Shown: in pieces, positions 3,780 through 34,486 of the stretch
How positions within the stretch are numbered: position 1 is the first letter of the stretch
How the letters are laid out: the number at the start of each line of letters is the position of its first letter
Origin: a virus
Strand: one strand, 5' to 3'
DNA: 34,486 bases
Virus record (IMG/VR): IMGVR_UViG_3300021471_000017
Span: 1 to 34,486 of that record
The notes under the pieces: generated by a model
The model's database searches: none
Seen by the model: only the letters and a program-made list of their open reading frames with translations
What the model was told of the DNA's origin: nothing
Made by a program: the position numbers and the translations under genes

Positions 3780-3794
3780 ATTATCCCTCCTTAT

Positions 3795-3817
3795 CAATAT
3801 AATTTTAGTCATATTGC
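3795..3817 (-). repeat. Intergenic palindrome, copy b
   Basis: CAATATAA (3795-3802), spacer TTTTAG, then TCATATTGC. One position differs from a perfect inverted repeat. In the leftward RNA the change gives a G-U pair, so the hairpin would survive, and the loop CUAAAA matches copy a. It precedes the ribosome-binding site of the first YopX gene. Confidence 0.75.
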
Positions 3818-5120: not shown

Positions 5121-5135
5121 ATTATCCCTCCCTAT

Positions 5136-5158
5136 GCAATATAATATTTCTTATATTG
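5136..5158 (-). repeat. Intergenic palindrome, copy d
   Basis: GCAATATAA (5136-5144), spacer TATTTC, TTATATTG (5151-5158). The stem is a perfect 8 bp, just upstream of the ribosome-binding site of the second YopX gene. Confidence 0.82.
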
Positions 5159-5163
5159 AAAAC

Positions 5164-5448
5164 TTATATAGTTTCATTCATGATTTTCAACAGCTTTTTA
5201 ACTTCCTTAAGGATCTTATCTTTTTTCATTTTCCATTCTGTCTCGAATTCTATTGTAATGCCTAACCCAAGACCTTCTACAAATGCCTGCAGTTCATCTA
5301 ATGTATCAAATATAAATTCTCTTTCATCTATCCAATCTTTTGCAACATGCCATACTTTGTATTTACCATCATCTAGTTTCTTAACTTGAAACCCAAGATG
5401 CTTCAATTCTAAAAATGCGTTAAAAATTCTCCCGTTATACACTTTCAT
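5164..5448 (-). CDS. Hypothetical protein, paralogue of the gene at 7691-7888
   Basis: The 94-residue product is not recognised. Its first two thirds align with the 65-residue product at 7691-7888: a helix L--LGF, the KxDDxKYxV strand, an EFxxxxxxE step and a FVxGxxxG motif. The extra C-terminal 30 residues form a lysine-rich helix (KMKKDKILKEVKKLLK). The start has AGGAGGGGTAAT before it. One base separates it from the preceding gene. Confidence 0.68.
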   Translation of the reverse strand: MKVYNGRIFNAFLELKHLGFQVKKLDDGKYKVWHVAKDWIDEREFIFDTLDELQAFVEGLGLGITIEFETEWKMKKDKILKEVKKLLKIMNETI

Positions 5449-6093: not shown

Positions 6094-7326
6094 TTAAAAT
6101 GGTGGTTCATCGTTTTCGTTTAAATTATTCGCAACGCTAACTACTCCATAGCCTGCACTTGACAATGTTCCAGCGCGTTTCAGCTCTTCGATTTTTCGAC
6201 GGATTGAATTTTCGTTAAGTCCAAACTGTTGTTTAACTTTCGTTATTAAATCCTTGATTTTGATTTCATTTTCCTGCTCTACAACTTGCTTTATAAATTC
6301 TTTTACTTCGTCCGTTTCTTCAATATTTTCTGAAGTTAAGACATCAACACCGTTGTATCTAAATTTAAACAAAAAGCTCAAATTAGAAGGTTTTGAAATA
6401 TTAAACTTGTATGGGATTAAATCTATTTGAAGCTTATCTCGAAGTGAAACTGATTTAAGTTCCCATACAAGCCTTGGATAATTCTCAAAATAAACCGAAC
6501 CGATGGGACTTTTATCTCCTTCTTCTTTTTTACTCTGTTTCGAAATATGCGTTAATAGCAATGTTCTTGTTCCATTTGTGTTGTAAAACTGCTTCAGCAT
6601 TGAGAAAAACTCACCCACTACATCAGCGTGATTAATGTTTCCACCTATTGCAGGTACCACACTATCAATAATCAGCAATTTAATATTGTATTTCACAATA
6701 TCATCAAGAACTTTATCGAACTCATAATTCAACGGAAGGGCAAGATTTCGATAAAACGGACTTTCTAAATCCTGCCCTAAACCGTTTTTCAAAAGAGTAA
6801 AGCGTCTTGAAATATCTTCCAGAGAAGTTTCCCAATCTAAATATAAAACGTTCATTTTAGCTGTTTGCATTTCAAAAAAACCGAAATCAAGCCCGTTTTG
6901 AACAGCCATTGCAATCAATAACGCAAGATAAGACTTTCCAGAACCACCTGGTGCAAATATGAGTGTATACGGATCAGCGACAATGGGCTTGATAAAATAA
7001 TGCTCGTGAGGTTCTGTTTCTATTAATTGAGCTGGTTCATCGTGTGTCAAAAGTTCGTTGATAACCTTCGTGAAAGCAAGTGTAAGAAGCTCTTGCCACG
7101 GAACGTTTTTTTCCAGTATTTCAAGGTGTCTTGAAAGCTTCCACCTTGCATCTATATCCATCAGCTCCACCGTCGAGATAAACAACGTTTTTTCTGTGTC
7201 TGTATCTACAATTTTTAAATTGCTCTGAATGTCTTTTCCTTTTACTCTTATACCCGAGAATATAAGTTGATATCCAGTAAAAAATATCTTATAATTATTT
7301 CCAATGCGTTTAATATCAAGATTCAT
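6094..7326 (-). CDS. RepA-like / AAA_25 ATPase (probable replicative helicase)
   Basis: The 410-residue protein has a RecA-fold ATPase core. Walker A is APGGSGKS at residues 125-132, followed by YLDWE at 162-166. Walker B is LLIIDS with Asp221, and a sensor-like LLLTHIS sits near residue 260. This arrangement matches RepA-type hexameric helicases and the AAA_25 family found in phages and plasmids. Residues 1-110 form a separate N-terminal domain. Residues about 335-395 read as a winged helix (IRRKIEELKRAGTL), suggesting DNA binding. It is the largest leftward gene, and with no polymerase or primase visible it is the best candidate for the central replication protein. It may work with the nuclease at 279-1184. 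A role as a recombination ATPase is the main alternative. Confidence 0.85.
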   Translation of the reverse strand: MNLDIKRIGNNYKIFFTGYQLIFSGIRVKGKDIQSNLKIVDTDTEKTLFISTVELMDIDARWKLSRHLEILEKNVPWQELLTLAFTKVINELLTHDEPAQLIETEPHEHYFIKPIVADPYTLIFAPGGSGKSYLALLIAMAVQNGLDFGFFEMQTAKMNVLYLDWETSLEDISRRFTLLKNGLGQDLESPFYRNLALPLNYEFDKVLDDIVKYNIKLLIIDSVVPAIGGNINHADVVGEFFSMLKQFYNTNGTRTLLLTHISKQSKKEEGDKSPIGSVYFENYPRLVWELKSVSLRDKLQIDLIPYKFNISKPSNLSFLFKFRYNGVDVLTSENIEETDEVKEFIKQVVEQENEIKIKDLITKVKQQFGLNENSIRRKIEELKRAGTLSSAGYGVVSVANNLNENDEPPF

Positions 7327-7340
7327 ATTCTATCACCCTC

Positions 7341-7619
7341 TTATAAGTATTTTTTAAGATTTTTACCTGTTTTCTTTGAATAAGTTTGATTATTACTGAT
7401 TTTTGCCATTTCTTTTGTTATTAGAACGTCTAACAACTGTTGCAATATTTTATTTTGTTGTTCGATTGCATTTGTAAGATTATCGAGCTTTCTTTCAAGC
7501 TTTGCAATTTCTCTGTTTTCTCCAGAAGAACGGGGCGTTAAACCCCGCTCGTGATAAAAATCAAGCCAAGTATTCGAACAGGGGAAATCTATTAAGTCAT
7601 CTTCAAATTTACTACTCAT
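7341..7619 (-). CDS. Hypothetical coiled-coil protein
   Basis: The 92-residue product is not recognised. Residues about 36-72 are a heptad-patterned coiled coil (REIAKLERKLDNL through LQQLLDVLI). The tail is basic and polar (SKKTGKNLKKYL). It lies immediately upstream of the RepA-like ATPase in the transcript, so an accessory or loader role is possible but unsupported by motifs. The start ATG has GAAGGAGTGATGTC before it. Confidence 0.65.
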   Translation of the reverse strand: MSSKFEDDLIDFPCSNTWLDFYHERGLTPRSSGENREIAKLERKLDNLTNAIEQQNKILQQLLDVLITKEMAKISNNQTYSKKTGKNLKKYL

Positions 7620-9141: not shown

Positions 9142-9162
9142 GCAATATTATTTCTTATTTCG
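9142..9162 (-). repeat. Intergenic palindrome, degenerate copy e
   Basis: The arm next to the ribosome-binding site is GCAATATTA, close to the family arm GCAATATAA. The distal arm has decayed (TTATTTCG). It overlaps the stop of the gene at 9155-9703. It is included because its position relative to the downstream ribosome-binding site is the same as in the other copies. Confidence 0.5.
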
Positions 9163-9703
9163 AATTTTTTTCAACAGGAAAAATTACTTTAAAAATTTGA
9201 CCTTCTGGAACCTTTTCATCTTCGATAAATGTAATCTTGTATTTCTCATGAAATTTTTTAAAAATATCTTCTGAAACATCTTTTACTTGTTTATCTAAAA
9301 GCACCAATACTCCTAATGCTACATATGCAAAATTATGCCAATTTGATATAAGTTGTTGTTGTTTCAATTCTTTAAAAATTTTACTTTTATTTTTTGATAT
9401 TTGAATATGTTTATCTGCTAAAAACAATGTTTTCAAAATAAGTTTTTTATCATTTGGATTATAATGCACTTTTATTTCTTTATTTTTTAAACTCCTTTTT
9501 AAAGCACACAACACAATCGAATGCAAAAAACTAATTTGATTAGTTGATACCTTCATCAACGGACATGGAATTAAATAAGTCCTCAAAAAATTTGAATAGT
9601 CTTGTCTATACAATTTTTCAATCCATGTCACTTTCACACAGTATTTTTCATTAAAATCGATAAAATCTTTAAACAACGCAATAAAATTAGTATTTTCAAT
9701 CAT
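9155..9703 (-). CDS. Hypothetical protein
   Basis: The 182-residue product is not recognised. It is basic, with a lysine/asparagine-rich middle (KKLILKTL; KNKSKIFKELKQQQ) and a hydrophobic run near residues 125-136 (FAYVALGVLVLL) that might be buried or membrane-associated. Second gene of the leftward operon, hence expected to be expressed very early. The start has GGAGGGAAAATAAA before it, and copy f of the palindrome lies upstream. Confidence 0.68.
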   Translation of the reverse strand: MIENTNFIALFKDFIDFNEKYCVKVTWIEKLYRQDYSNFLRTYLIPCPLMKVSTNQISFLHSIVLCALKRSLKNKEIKVHYNPNDKKLILKTLFLADKHIQISKNKSKIFKELKQQQLISNWHNFAYVALGVLVLLDKQVKDVSEDIFKKFHEKYKITFIEDEKVPEGQIFKVIFPVEKNSK

Positions 9704-10100: not shown

Positions 10101-10137
10101 AATATCCCCTCCTAATTTATTATTTTTGTTTTTTTAC

Positions 10138-10198
10138 GCTTAGCTTCTTTCAGTCATCTCCCCAGCACCACCTGCAAGAGCCCTACTCAAAGCTAAGC
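10138..10198 (-). ncRNA. Structured, GC-rich 5' leader of the leftward operon
   Basis: GCTTAGCTT (10138-10146) and AAGCTAAGC (10190-10198) are perfect inverted repeats enclosing 43 bases. The interior is visibly richer in G+C than its surroundings and purine-rich on the RNA strand (including GCAGGTGGTGCTGGGGAG), with small internal inverted repeats (GAG/CTC and GCA/TGC). In the leftward RNA it would be a closed multi-loop element about 35 bases after the predicted start and 40 bases before the first ribosome-binding site. It does not match a riboswitch class I can name. A cis-acting antitermination RNA or ligand-sensing leader is possible. Confidence 0.6.
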
Positions 10199-10238
10199 TA
10201 TTCACTTTTCAAAGACCTTTTTCATCGTTTACATCTTA

Positions 10239-10266
10239 ATTATATAGCTTGTATATTACAAATCAA
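10239..10266 (-). promoter_or_regulatory. Leftward early promoter
   Basis: On the minus strand TTGATT (10261-10266), 16 bases, TATAAT (10239-10244). An overlapping alternative uses TTTACA in the upstream dyad, 17 bases, TAATAT. Either would start the leftward transcript near 10230-10245. It is the only good promoter found ahead of the long leftward gene array. Confidence 0.7.
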
Positions 10267-10271
10267 TGTAT

Positions 10272-10287
10272 GAAATGTAAACATTTC
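10272..10287. promoter_or_regulatory. Operator-like dyad next to leftward promoter
   Basis: GAAATGT-AA-ACATTTC is a perfect 7-bp inverted repeat just upstream of the -35 box. The same core appears as GTTTACAT at 10227-10234, on the start-site side of the promoter. A second dyad, TTTAC-N6-GTAAA, lies at 10298-10313. The arrangement looks like binding sites for a phage regulator, although no repressor gene was recognised. Confidence 0.55.
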
Positions 10288-10297
10288 CTTACACTTC

Positions 10298-10313
10298 TTT
10301 ACAATTAGGTAAA
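10298..10313. promoter_or_regulatory. Second operator-like dyad TTTAC-N6-GTAAA
   Basis: TTTAC (10298-10302) and GTAAA (10309-10313) are inverted repeats sharing the TTTAC/GTAAA core with the dyad at 10272-10287. They lie between the leftward promoter and the small-RNA promoter and could control both. Confidence 0.4.
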
Positions 10314-10339
10314 CAATTTTCTTGATAAAAATTTTTGTG

Positions 10340-10367
10340 TTGAAACTGGATAGAAATATGGTAAAAT
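10340..10367 (+). promoter_or_regulatory. Promoter of the candidate small RNA
   Basis: TTGAAA (10340-10345), 16 bases, TAAAAT (10362-10367), preceded by TG in the extended -10 position. The predicted start is near 10374. Only a short unit ending in an intrinsic terminator follows, with no ribosome-binding site or gene. Confidence 0.65.
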
Positions 10368-10373
10368 ATAAAT

Positions 10374-10446
10374 GAAGTGAAAAATCCCCCCTCCTCCCTT
10401 CCTGATAAACGAATCATTAGCCCCGCTCAGGGGCATTTTTTATTGG
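10374..10446 (+). ncRNA. Candidate phage small RNA with anti-Shine-Dalgarno tract
   Basis: Between the promoter and the terminator lies a transcript of about 70 bases with no open frame. It contains a 19-base C/U-only tract at 10385-10403 (CCCCCCTCCTCCC core), then a small TGAT/ATCA stem and the terminator hairpin. The tract includes CCCTCC and CTCCTCCC, complementary to the GGAGGG and GGGAGGAG ribosome-binding sites used by the leftward genes. On the opposite strand the purine tract is not followed by a start codon within 20 bases, so it is not a ribosome-binding site for a minus-strand gene. Existence as an RNA is likely; the anti-Shine-Dalgarno role is inference. Confidence 0.55.
10420..10441 (+). 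terminator. Intrinsic terminator of the small RNA
   Basis: GCCCC-GCTCA-GGGGC followed by A and six T residues. The stem is short but all G-C, and the U-tract is on the plus strand only, so it ends rightward transcription. Confidence 0.8.
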
Positions 10447-10525
10447 CAATTTCTTAAAAAACAAGAAGTAAATATTTTTGATGGATAAAATCCTGAGATG
10501 TAAATCAAAATTATTTTCCCTCTGA

Positions 10526-10537
10526 GACCGATTTAAA
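10526..10537. repeat. CGATTTAAA element, copy 1
   Basis: GACCGATTTAAA is shared with 30763-30774. Its core CGATTTAAA also occurs at 10610-10618. See the ATCGAT palindrome entries. Confidence 0.45.
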
Positions 10538-10600
10538 CCGCCCAAATTTTGCTTCTAAACCCCAGACACGTATTTTGATATACCTGAGTGGAGAAACATG

Positions 10601-10619
10601 CCTTAAAATCGATTTAAAT
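10601..10619. repeat. ATCGAT-centred palindromic element, left copy
   Basis: CCTTAAAATCGATTTAAAT is a near-palindrome around ATCGAT. Its reverse complement occurs at 30768-30786 (19 matching bases), so the two copies lie in inverted orientation on either side of the rightward structural module. Confidence 0.55.
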
Positions 10620-10651
10620 AGGTAGTTAGGAAAGCGAACAATCACTCACAC

Positions 10652-10688
10652 CGCATCACTAAACAGCTGGCGCATCACGACGCATCAC
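10652..10688 (+). repeat. Three CGCATCAC iterons
   Basis: CGCATCAC occurs at 10652-10659, 10671-10678 and 10681-10688, at spacings of 19 and 10 bases (roughly two and one helical turns). A partial copy CGCAT follows at about 10703. Short phased direct repeats next to an AT-rich stretch are typical of replication initiator sites. Confidence 0.55.
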
Positions 10689-10699
10689 TTTTCAAAAAG

Positions 10700-10860
10700 T
10701 TCCGCATAATATTGTTATCTTTTTCTTTTTCTTTCTTTTATATATTTTTCTTTCTTTTTCTTTTTATATATTCTTTTAAATATAACAATTAAAAATAAAA
10801 GATCTTTAAAAAAATAAAAGATCTATAAATATATAAAAATATATAAAAAATATACTTTTG
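10700..10860. other. Very AT-rich stretch, candidate DNA-unwinding element of an origin
   Basis: About 150 bp nearly free of G and C. The left part is a pyrimidine tract of CTTTTT repeats; the right part is A-rich with TATATAAAAA repeats. AAAATAAAAGATCT occurs twice (10792-10805 and 10811-10824). With the adjacent iterons it forms the best origin candidate in the genome. Confidence 0.5.
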
Positions 10861-11011
10861 CAGTTAAAATGTCAAGTTGCAAAATAAACGAATAAATCAA
10901 ACAAGAAGCGATTATCAAAAGTTTCCTCCCGCGAAGTTTTGTATTTGCATTCGTTCAGCTTTTTACAACATAGGTTGAAGTTTGACAGATGGTGGAAAAT
11001 ATACAGGGAAG

Positions 11012-11020
11012 TGGTATAAT
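11012..11020 (+). promoter_or_regulatory. Extended -10 rightward promoter
   Basis: TGGTATAAT is a perfect extended -10. No good -35 lies 16-18 bases upstream; a TTGACA is 27 bases away, too far. A transcript would begin near 11027 and pass a 7-bp inverted repeat (ATGAGAA 11025-11031, TTCTCAT 11067-11073). No gene with a ribosome-binding site follows directly. Confidence 0.5.
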
Positions 11021-11147
11021 ATAGATGAGAATAAAATGGGAAAATTAAAATTGGAAATGAAAAATTTTCTCATTTGAAGACTTTATAGGTAAATTTAGAA
11101 AATAATCATAATTATAGTTGAAATTATACGATGAGGTAGAAATATTT

Positions 11148-11240
11148 GAAAGTTTCACGAAGTTTCAAAAAGTTTCACGAACTTTCTTGAGAATTCTCGA
11201 GTTTTCAAACTTTTTAAAAACTTTTTTGAAACTTTTTGTC
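11148..11240. repeat. 10-bp-phased GTTTC repeat block 1
   Basis: Runs of AGTTTCACGA, AGTTTCAAAA, AGTTTCACGA, ACTTTCTTGA and degenerate continuations repeat every 10 bases. Bases 11151-11176 recur exactly at 11337-11362. Half-sites GAAA and TTTC form dyads. The 10-base phasing of T tracts predicts intrinsic DNA bending. The block precedes the promoter at 11281. Confidence 0.7.
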
Positions 11241-11280
11241 AGGATGAGTGAATTGACTAAAAAAAGAAAATCAGAAATTA

Positions 11281-11309
11281 TTGACAAATAATTGTGATTT
11301 TGGACTAAT
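11281..11309 (+). promoter_or_regulatory. Rightward promoter between the phased repeat blocks
   Basis: Consensus TTGACA (11281-11286), 17 bases, ACTAAT (11304-11309) with TG in the extended -10 position. The -10 is imperfect. Confidence 0.45.
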
Positions 11310-11320
11310 ACACTTAAATA

Positions 11321-11375
11321 TTGAAAAGTTTCAACGAGTTTCACGAAGTTTCAAAAAGTTTCTCAAAAGTTTAAA
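11321..11375. repeat. 10-bp-phased GTTTC repeat block 2
   Basis: A second set of GAGTTTCACG, AAGTTTCAAA, AAGTTTCTCA units, again at 10-base steps, with a 26-base exact match (11337-11362) to block 1. It lies directly upstream of the strongest rightward promoter. Confidence 0.7.
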
Positions 11376-11387
11376 AATTCGTTAGCT

Positions 11388-11415
11388 TTGCGAATTGATA
11401 TTTTTATGATATAAT
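11388..11415 (+). promoter_or_regulatory. Main rightward promoter
   Basis: TTGCGA (11388-11393), 16 bases, TATAAT (11410-11415) with TG in the extended -10 position. The predicted start near 11422 lies 67 bases before the first structural-operon gene. Confidence 0.65.
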
Positions 11416-11434
11416 AAAATTAGAATACTAAGGT

Positions 11435-11465
11435 TGCGGGGAGTTAGACGATGAGTGAGCCCGCA
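11435..11465 (+). promoter_or_regulatory. Hairpin in leader of rightward mRNA
   Basis: TGCGGG (11435-11440) pairs with CCCGCA (11460-11465) across a 19-base loop that contains a GGGGAG ribosome-binding site and an ATG at 11451. It would sit near the 5' end of the rightward transcript and may control stability or translation of the leader frame. Confidence 0.45.
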
Positions 11466-11504
11466 GTGGGTAAAGGTGGTGGGATTTTATGCTTAAAAAG
11501 GTGA
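11451..11504 (+). CDS. Possible 17-residue leader peptide
   Basis: ATG at 11451 follows GGGGAG at seven bases and opens the frame MSEPAVGKGGGILCLKR, ending inside the next gene in another frame. It could couple translation to the HExxH gene that starts at 11489. Short and unproven. Confidence 0.3.
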   Translation: MSEPAVGKGGGILCLKR

Positions 11505-11815
11505 GGATTAACGGATTGGACTACAAGATTAAGTTAGTTTCAGAGATGTACGGTGATGAAGTTGGCAGGATTGATATTTTTGAAGGTATTATCTATCTCG
11601 AAAACAGTAGACCAAGAGGTATGCTTTTCACTTTACTCCACGAAATAATTCATGCTATTTTGTATTCAGCAGGATATACTAATCTTGATGATAATGAGCA
11701 TAATGAGAAACTTATCGACGCAATAACTCATGGACTTTATACTGTTATTAAAGATAATCCCGAATTGATTGAGTTAATTAGAAAGGAGGAGAGTGAAGAT
11801 GAAGATAACGGTTAA
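11489..11815 (+). CDS. Small zinc metallopeptidase-like protein (HExxH)
   Basis: The 108-residue protein contains LLHEIIHAILYSAG, with the HExxH zinc-binding motif near residue 51 and a downstream NEHNEKLIDAIT stretch whose acidic residue could be the third ligand. The fold resembles the minimal ImmA/IrrE or SprT-like metallopeptidase core found in phages. It opens the rightward operon just before the small terminase. Phage ImmA-like proteases can cleave repressors, but no partner repressor is visible, so it may instead process a virion or host protein. The ATG follows AAAGGTGGTGGGATTTT. The C-terminus is very acidic (EESEDEDNG). Confidence 0.7.
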   Translation: MLKKVRINGLDYKIKLVSEMYGDEVGRIDIFEGIIYLENSRPRGMLFTLLHEIIHAILYSAGYTNLDDNEHNEKLIDAITHGLYTVIKDNPELIELIRKEESEDEDNG

Positions 11816-30413: not shown

Positions 30414-30773
30414 ATGCTTTTATTTGTGATTTATCTCTGGTTATTGTGGTGGGCTATTGCATTCTTTCCAGTTAAATGGGTATCAGTAAAGAAATTGCCT
30501 GCTATAGCAATGACGATAGCACCATTCATACTTTACAATCCAGATAGATACTTTTTATACAACAAAGAAAGATTAATAAAGCATGAGATGAGGCATATAC
30601 AGCAACAAAGAATGTTATCTCCTGCGATAATGTTGATATTATATTTAGCGTTTTCAATAATCTTATTTGTGTTCTATTTAGCTAAATACCACTCGTTGAA
30701 ATATGCTTTTATGAAGTGTTATCGAGAAAATCCATTTGAGGTTGACGCAAGAAAATATGAACGACCGATTTAA
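30414..30773 (+). CDS. Membrane-embedded HExxH protein (putative metallopeptidase)
   Basis: The ATG at 30414 lies eight bases after AAGGAG; a GTG at 30405 is too close. The 119-residue protein has an N-terminal hydrophobic segment (LLFVIYLWLLWWAIAFFPV) and a second long one (PAIMLILYLAFSIILFVFYLA). Between them is HEMRHIQQQ, a HExxH zinc motif near residue 61, and after them ENPFEVDARKY, whose Glu could be the third ligand. The H-E-x-x-H-x-x-Q plus a downstream N/SFExxA pattern occurs in small membrane proteins of bacteria and phages whose role is unknown. Placed beside the candidate holin, it may act at the envelope in lysis or exclusion. Confidence 0.68.
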   Translation: MLLFVIYLWLLWWAIAFFPVKWVSVKKLPAIAMTIAPFILYNPDRYFLYNKERLIKHEMRHIQQQRMLSPAIMLILYLAFSIILFVFYLAKYHSLKYAFMKCYRENPFEVDARKYERPI

Positions 30774-30786
30774 ATCGATTTTAAGG
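30763..30786. repeat. ATCGAT-centred palindromic element, right copy
   Basis: GACCGATTTAAATCGATTTT at 30763-30782 continues into AAGG. Bases 30768-30786 are the reverse complement of 10601-10619, and bases 30763-30774 equal 10526-10537. It spans the stop of the membrane HExxH gene. The following 134 bases (30787-30920) hold no convincing gene: a 20-codon frame at 30819 lacks a ribosome-binding site, and AAATCC/GGATTT inverted repeats lie near 30870-30895. Confidence 0.5.
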
Positions 30787-30920
30787 GGTGTTTAAAGGGG
30801 CAAGATATGTAATTATATATGACAGTAAACGAAACACGTCTTATTTGCGAAATATTAAAGCGCGTAAATCCGCATAAATAGTGGATTTTCGAAAATACAG
30901 CGTAAGTGAGGTGAGTAGCT

Positions 30921-34325: not shown

Positions 34326-34486
34326 TCACTCCTTTGTAGGTATATTTAGCGTCAAATCTAATGGTTCTTTCTTTATTACTTCTCCGTGAATAATTACTGA
34401 AACAACAACATCTTCTACACGGTTCAATTGAATAAGCTCTCCTTTATCGTTCTTCATGATGATGGGAACTTTTGCTCTAATTTGAT
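34326..34486 (-). CDS. 3' part of the junction-crossing hypothetical gene
   Basis: This is the right-hand copy of the gene at 4-207, entering the window at its right edge. It lacks the 1-bp deletion and so reads on to TGA at 34326-34328, with the last codons inside the ribosome-binding site of the next gene. It defines the true C-terminus (…KKEPLDLTLNIPTKE). Confidence 0.8.
   Translation of the reverse strand, partial: QIRAKVPIIMKNDKGELIQLNRVEDVVVSVIIHGEVIKKEPLDLTLNIPTKE
34356..34486. repeat. Right copy of terminal overlap
   Basis: Direct repeat of the left end: 34361-34486 equals 6-131 exactly, and 34356-34360 continues with one extra A relative to the left copy. It marks the closure point of the circle. 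Confidence 0.9.

Follow-up and report, generated by a model that had tools for sequence, protein, structure and literature searches.

A candidate C-rich small RNA locus between divergent operons of a phage with a probable Firmicute host

A short cassette in the control region between two divergent phage operons plausibly encodes a ∼68-nt non-coding transcript (10374–10441, plus strand), since its promoter–terminator pair and its C-rich tract are both rare and lie together in what is most likely the single early/late control region of the genome. The cassette was analysed in the window, an IMG/VR virus record taken at its full length of 34,486 bases. Under the favoured reading, to which a probability of roughly 35% is given, the product would be a new, lineage-specific phage small RNA (sRNA) whose C-rich region (CRR) masks Shine-Dalgarno (SD) sequences without operon specificity. 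The original prediction had proposed a switch acting on the leftward genes as a group, and the evidence for this vanishes because the tract equals its own shuffles in pairing and the relative L002 has the same ribosome-binding sites (RBSs) without the tract.

The ends of the record overlap by ∼131 bases (1–131 versus 34356–34486) with a single 1-base gap, so that the record can be closed into a circle of ∼34.4 kb that carries two operons. One, the leftward operon, runs from 10100 through 1 and 34486 to 32042 and carries replication genes, RusA, and transglycosylase/holin-like lysis genes, and the rightward operon runs from 11489 to 32045 and encodes a zinc-peptidase-like protein, terminase, portal, capsid, and tail. 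With circular closure, the divergent control region that contains the candidate locus (10101–11488) becomes the only one, separating a single leftward from a single rightward operon, and it serves as the one early/late control region of a siphophage-like genome. The host is likely to be a Firmicute, as phages of Bacillus, Sporosarcina, Enterococcus, and Thermoanaerobacterium are among the closest named relatives by virion and terminase proteins.

The promoter, the 19-base C/U tract, and the terminator of the original prediction were all confirmed in the sequence at the positions it gave. The promoter is a sigma-A/70-type match (10340–10367, plus strand, 10/12) of the form TTGAAA-N16-TAAAAT with an extended −10 TG, in which the −35 box TTGAAA occupies 10340–10345 and TG-n-TAAAAT ends at 10367, and transcription would be expected to start near 10374. 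The pyrimidine tract TCCCCCCTCCTCCCTTCCT lies at 10385–10403 on the same strand, and the intrinsic terminator (10420–10441, plus strand) consists of the hairpin GCCCCGCTCAGGGGC at 10420–10434, with five G-C pairs and a 5-nt loop, followed by ATTTTTT with its six T. Inspection of the frames bore out the claim that neither an RBS nor a gene lies between promoter and terminator: no start codon with an RBS was found there, ATG-AAG-TGA amounts to two codons, and a GTG frame passes without an SD through the terminator. A coding or leader-peptide reading was rejected because the frames lack an SD and cross the terminator, and the tract was likewise rejected as a minus-strand RBS of a leftward gene, with no start codon at a usable distance. 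In the fold prediction, the tract sits between two hairpins and is mostly unpaired (mean unpaired probability 0.69), and the RNA folds weakly better than shuffles (z −1.66). The locus has, by computation, the unpaired run of C-rich sequence able to pair with SDs that characterizes CRR sRNAs and, at the level of sequence, the promoter and intrinsic terminator of its own, without an ORF, that are expected of a trans-acting sRNA.

Promoters with a 10/12 match are common (33 in the window, both strands), and a stricter terminator scan of the window returned three terminators on the plus strand, of which that at 10420 is the best, and none on the minus strand. A promoter followed by a good terminator within 120 nt occurs once in the window, and such a pair was present in 4 of 150 simulated genomes (order-1 Markov). 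Among 200 simulated genomes, two reached a stretch with 11 C within 15 pure pyrimidines, which makes the tract rare for a genome of 33% GC, and CCCCCCTCCTCCC, allowing two mismatches, occurs once in the window against 0.07 expected. Chance, with an unused promoter match or terminator and the tract a mere oddity of sequence, is an unlikely explanation; it would agree with the number of promoter-like matches in 5 kb (30 versus 22 expected) and with the lack of conservation, but not with the combination of the TG, the spacing, the best terminator of the window, and an intergenic place.

The ability of the tract to pair with SD sequences was supported by computation, with a mean duplex energy of −12.6 kcal/mol against leftward and −11.0 kcal/mol against rightward start regions, compared with −4.3 kcal/mol against random windows. 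However, the search of the tract against the phage starts gave no leftward selectivity over shuffles: the pairing beyond base composition that a dedicated switch calls for was not found at leftward starts, which were paired equally well or better by 60 of 200 shuffled tracts and, in a second run, by 46 of 300, and the left–right difference was matched by 54/200 and 66/300. Over all genes, leftward and rightward pairing did not differ significantly (p = 0.083), and in the second run, restricted to strong SDs, leftward sites paired better (−14.6 leftward versus −11.8 rightward, p = 0.028), but the shuffles of that run gave the counts stated above (46/300 for strength, 66/300 for difference). Any pyrimidine string rich in C thus pairs strongly with start regions, whatever its base order, and the asymmetry belongs to the RBSs and not to the tract, since shuffled tracts give an equal left–right difference.

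The RBSs themselves are unevenly distributed. As predicted, GGAGGGATAATATG has six copies in the window, all leftward, and the leftward bias of GGAGGG is real (14 of the 22 leftward genes with GGAGG versus 1 of 11 rightward, Fisher p = 0.004), with rightward genes preferring GGAGGT (8/11); the statement that the RBSs of nearly all leftward genes are complementary to the tract was overstated, as GGAGG is present at all in 20 of the 31 leftward starts used. In the record of L002, 8 of the 12 genes read on the strand that corresponds to leftward have GGAGGG, two genes have an exact GGAGGGATAATATG, and CCCTCCTCCC is absent from the 16.4 kb even when one mismatch is allowed. Similarly, L055 (the record of L022) has GGAGGG in 6 of 13 genes with one exact copy, and the full tract is absent there. 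The bias is therefore independent of the RNA, because L002 shows both the bias and GGAGGGATAATATG in a record that holds no tract, and the tie between a shared RBS motif and the presence of the tract that a dedicated switch implies is broken in L002. An extended start-proximal SD pattern, AGGNAT, has been reported for S. aureus ribosomes (PMC13009471), and GGAGGGAT fits it; in the window, 17/31 leftward and 5/23 rightward starts fit the extended patterns given in that paper. It is highly improbable that the locus yields a minimal RNA that imitates the 16S rRNA 3' end and lowers strong-SD translation in bulk as an early-to-late timing switch, in which the leftward phage genes would be hit first owing to their extra G.

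A palindrome, CAATATAA(N5-6)TTATATTGCA, lies directly upstream of the RBSs of several leftward genes and is a possible operator or dispersed intercistronic element. On the minus strand of the window, it is complete at 2898, 3790–3812, 4744, and 5142 and present as the 3' half only at 9148 and 9728, and some copies of the GGAGGGATAATATG-type motif follow the palindrome CAATATAA..TTATATTGC. L014 carries it at 426 (plus strand), 6556, and 10548 (both minus strand), and the 42-nt stretch 5127–5168 of the window is 93% conserved with L014. Its conservation in L014 ahead of other genes suggests that these sites may be dispersed intercistronic elements.

The original prediction described the proposed switch as unfamiliar from other phages, whereas the mechanism is known already from FsrA, RoxS, RsaA, and StxS, and SD-masking C-rich RNAs, RBS-silencing phage transcripts, and non-coding transcripts at operon junctions have all been described. 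CRRs mask SDs in FsrA and RoxS of Bacillus (PMC8464778) and in RsaA of Staphylococcus aureus (PMC3961350). Like the candidate, FsrA, RoxS/RsaE, and RsaA are stand-alone small RNAs with a promoter and a terminator in which an unpaired C-rich stretch is directed against the SD; unlike the candidate, which is phage-borne and has one tract and no homologue found, they are host RNAs, several of them conserved across species, with 1–4 CRRs and verified targets. In addition, RsaA requires a second contact for optimal binding, whereas the candidate is not known to have one. The SD-masking sRNA reading is favoured because the promoter–terminator pair exceeds chance, the tract is rare and mostly unpaired, and sRNAs of Gram-positive hosts are well established to mask SDs by means of CRRs. 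According to this reading, the rightward promoter in the sole early/late control region would give rise to an untranslated RNA of ∼68 nt, which the intrinsic terminator would end and which may be stable, and its largely single-stranded CCCCCCUCCUCCC would pair with G-rich SDs, hinder 30S binding, and so inhibit the mRNAs. To judge by pairing energy, it would act on the strongest SDs in each of the two operons and possibly also on host SDs.

Two phage transcripts resemble the candidate in place and suggest other roles for it. StxS of the Shiga-toxin phages, the short transcript of lambda pR'-tR', silences an RBS by base pairing (PMC7873438), and like the candidate, it is a short phage transcript stopped by a terminator ahead of a rightward late operon. 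The cassette might accordingly be a late-operon attenuator of the lambda type, at which transcription from what would be a late promoter stops at 10441 until a phage antiterminator lets it continue into the rightward operon, with the short RNA as a by-product possibly reused as an sRNA, as in StxS. Both the attenuator and such reuse are unlikely, even though the cassette is built and oriented in the same way (a promoter, then a short transcript, a terminator, and a rightward virion operon) and StxS provides a precedent. StxS differs in its antitermination control and its Hfq dependence; no antitermination site was seen on the rightward strand of the candidate, which has no boxA-like site, and no Q-like gene was found among the scanned proteins. 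Moreover, better placed promoter-like sites with TG-TATAAT are present farther along, at 10993 and 11388, shortly ahead of where the rightward genes begin, and AT-rich and repeat DNA of ∼1 kb intervenes. The second transcript, PE1-T of the lactococcal phage c2, is an RBS-less transcript in a divergent early/late intergenic region, and origins of Ceduovirus carry just such transcripts (PMC7150918). A comparable transcript that helps to start replication would fit a genome of only two divergent operons whose control region includes a stretch of 14–16% GC (10700–10899), 10-bp-spaced GTTTC repeats (11150–11373), and the turning point of the cumulative GC skew. This role is nevertheless distinctly unlikely, as PE1-T is an early-direction transcript inside the origin, whereas the candidate runs in the late direction and ends ∼260 bases ahead of the AT-rich stretch. 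The skew turn also tracks the direction of transcription, no DnaA box was found in the region, and C-rich RNA is poor for forming R-loops.

Syntenic control regions of relatives were recovered with the 19-base leftward-leader element TATTCACTTTTCAAAGACC. In L002 (IMGVR_UViG_3300033998_000411; identity of 62% in terminase, 62% in the primase-like protein, and 73% in the RusA-like protein), the slot between the operator region and the AT-rich region is occupied by a promoter with an extended −10, thyX (6632–7366), and a terminator immediately preceded by the pyrimidine tract CCCCTTCCTTTT; the arrangement shares the slot and the syntenic control region with the window and differs by the thyX gene and by the promoter and terminator sequences. 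The cassette is absent from the control regions of L014 and L018, and the slot is therefore variable, as would be expected of a cargo site. The close rival of the SD-masking reading is an emptied cargo (moron) slot, in which promoter and terminator once framed a gene that has since gone, leaving the short RNA as a remnant and the tract as part of the former 3' UTR. This is possible though doubtful, and it draws on the promoter–thyX–terminator order of L002 in the same place, on the tract directly ahead of the L002 terminator, and on the cassette-free L014 and L018. Against it, the similarity of the pre-terminator segments is not significant (69/1000 shuffles), for which reason homology of the two tracts was rejected; no thyX remnant was found in the window; and a rare C-rich tract is unexpected in a neutral leftover. 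For the cassette of the window, the choice thus lies between a lineage-specific sRNA and an emptied cargo slot.

No homologue of the sRNA was found in phages, plasmids, or IMG/VR. A DNA similarity search of phages and plasmids gave no credible match, Rfam scans at the gathering and a relaxed threshold gave no match for the locus, and five contigs returned by an exact IMG/VR scan for CCCCCCTCCTCCCTTCC were rejected as unrelated and all without the cassette. The SD-masking reading is weakened by this lack of homologues, by the absence of the RNA from the syntenic L002, L014, and L018, by the irrelevance of tract order, and by the weak fold score. The closest relative by virion genes, L040, is near-identical (most of its head and tail proteins match at 95–100% identity and its capsid at 87%), and its contig stops inside the portal gene, with the control region beyond its end. 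No further loci were obtained with protein queries from the window zinc-peptidase, 9155–9703, and 6094–7326.

Other elements of the control region stand apart from the cassette. The leftward operon has a putative divergent promoter, TTGATT-N16-TATAAT (10239–10266, minus strand), and the spacer between the two promoters (10267–10330) holds repeated GTAAACA/AGTAAA boxes, also seen by eye in L002, L014, and L018, which make it a possible operator. Iteron-like AGTTTC(N)GA repeats with 10-bp spacing precede the rightward operon both in the window (11150–11373) and in L002 (8420–8870), and with the adjoining GC-poor stretch, they are candidate origin or activator sites. An intergenic repeat around TTAAAATCGATTTAAAT occurs at 10591–10642 and, mutually inverted, at 30764–30820 and is common to L002 (7776–7850 and 7985–8032) and L014 (5596–5654). 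The first rightward gene has a GC-rich hairpin, GCGGGGAGTTAGACGATGAGTGAGCCCGC, in its leader (11432–11490), and the surrounding 11432–11760 is 67% identical to L018.

The leader of the leftward operon (10113–10219, minus strand), which is separate from the sRNA, consists of a boxA-like GGTCTTTGAAAAGTGAATAG, which resembles the boxA found in rRNA leaders of Gram-positive bacteria, and, after it, a structured hairpin that is conserved, with minus-strand counterparts in L002 (6440–6545) and L014 (5340–5440). The inner hairpin segments AGTAGGGCTC and GGGAGATGAC-GAAAG are invariant save one base among the window, L002, and L014, and the outer stem is formed by different yet complementary sequences in the three, that is, by compensating changes. 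The layout of a boxA-like element and a hairpin is similar to that of a lambda nut site, and the leader resembles a nut-like antitermination site. Rfam gave no match for it, and a leader-peptide reading was rejected because neither L002 nor L014 preserves the frame. The 19-nt boxA core is also found at other IMG/VR loci, and in L018, L020, and L021 it lies, by eye, just upstream of a leftward gene. This boxA and hairpin leader of a leftward operon unit of ∼24 kb looks more interesting than the sRNA. If the cassette is transcribed, it would place an SD-pairing C-rich sRNA, close in principle to StxS, on a phage of a probable Firmicute host and would offer a simple test case for the bulk tuning of translation by one anti-SD-like tract.
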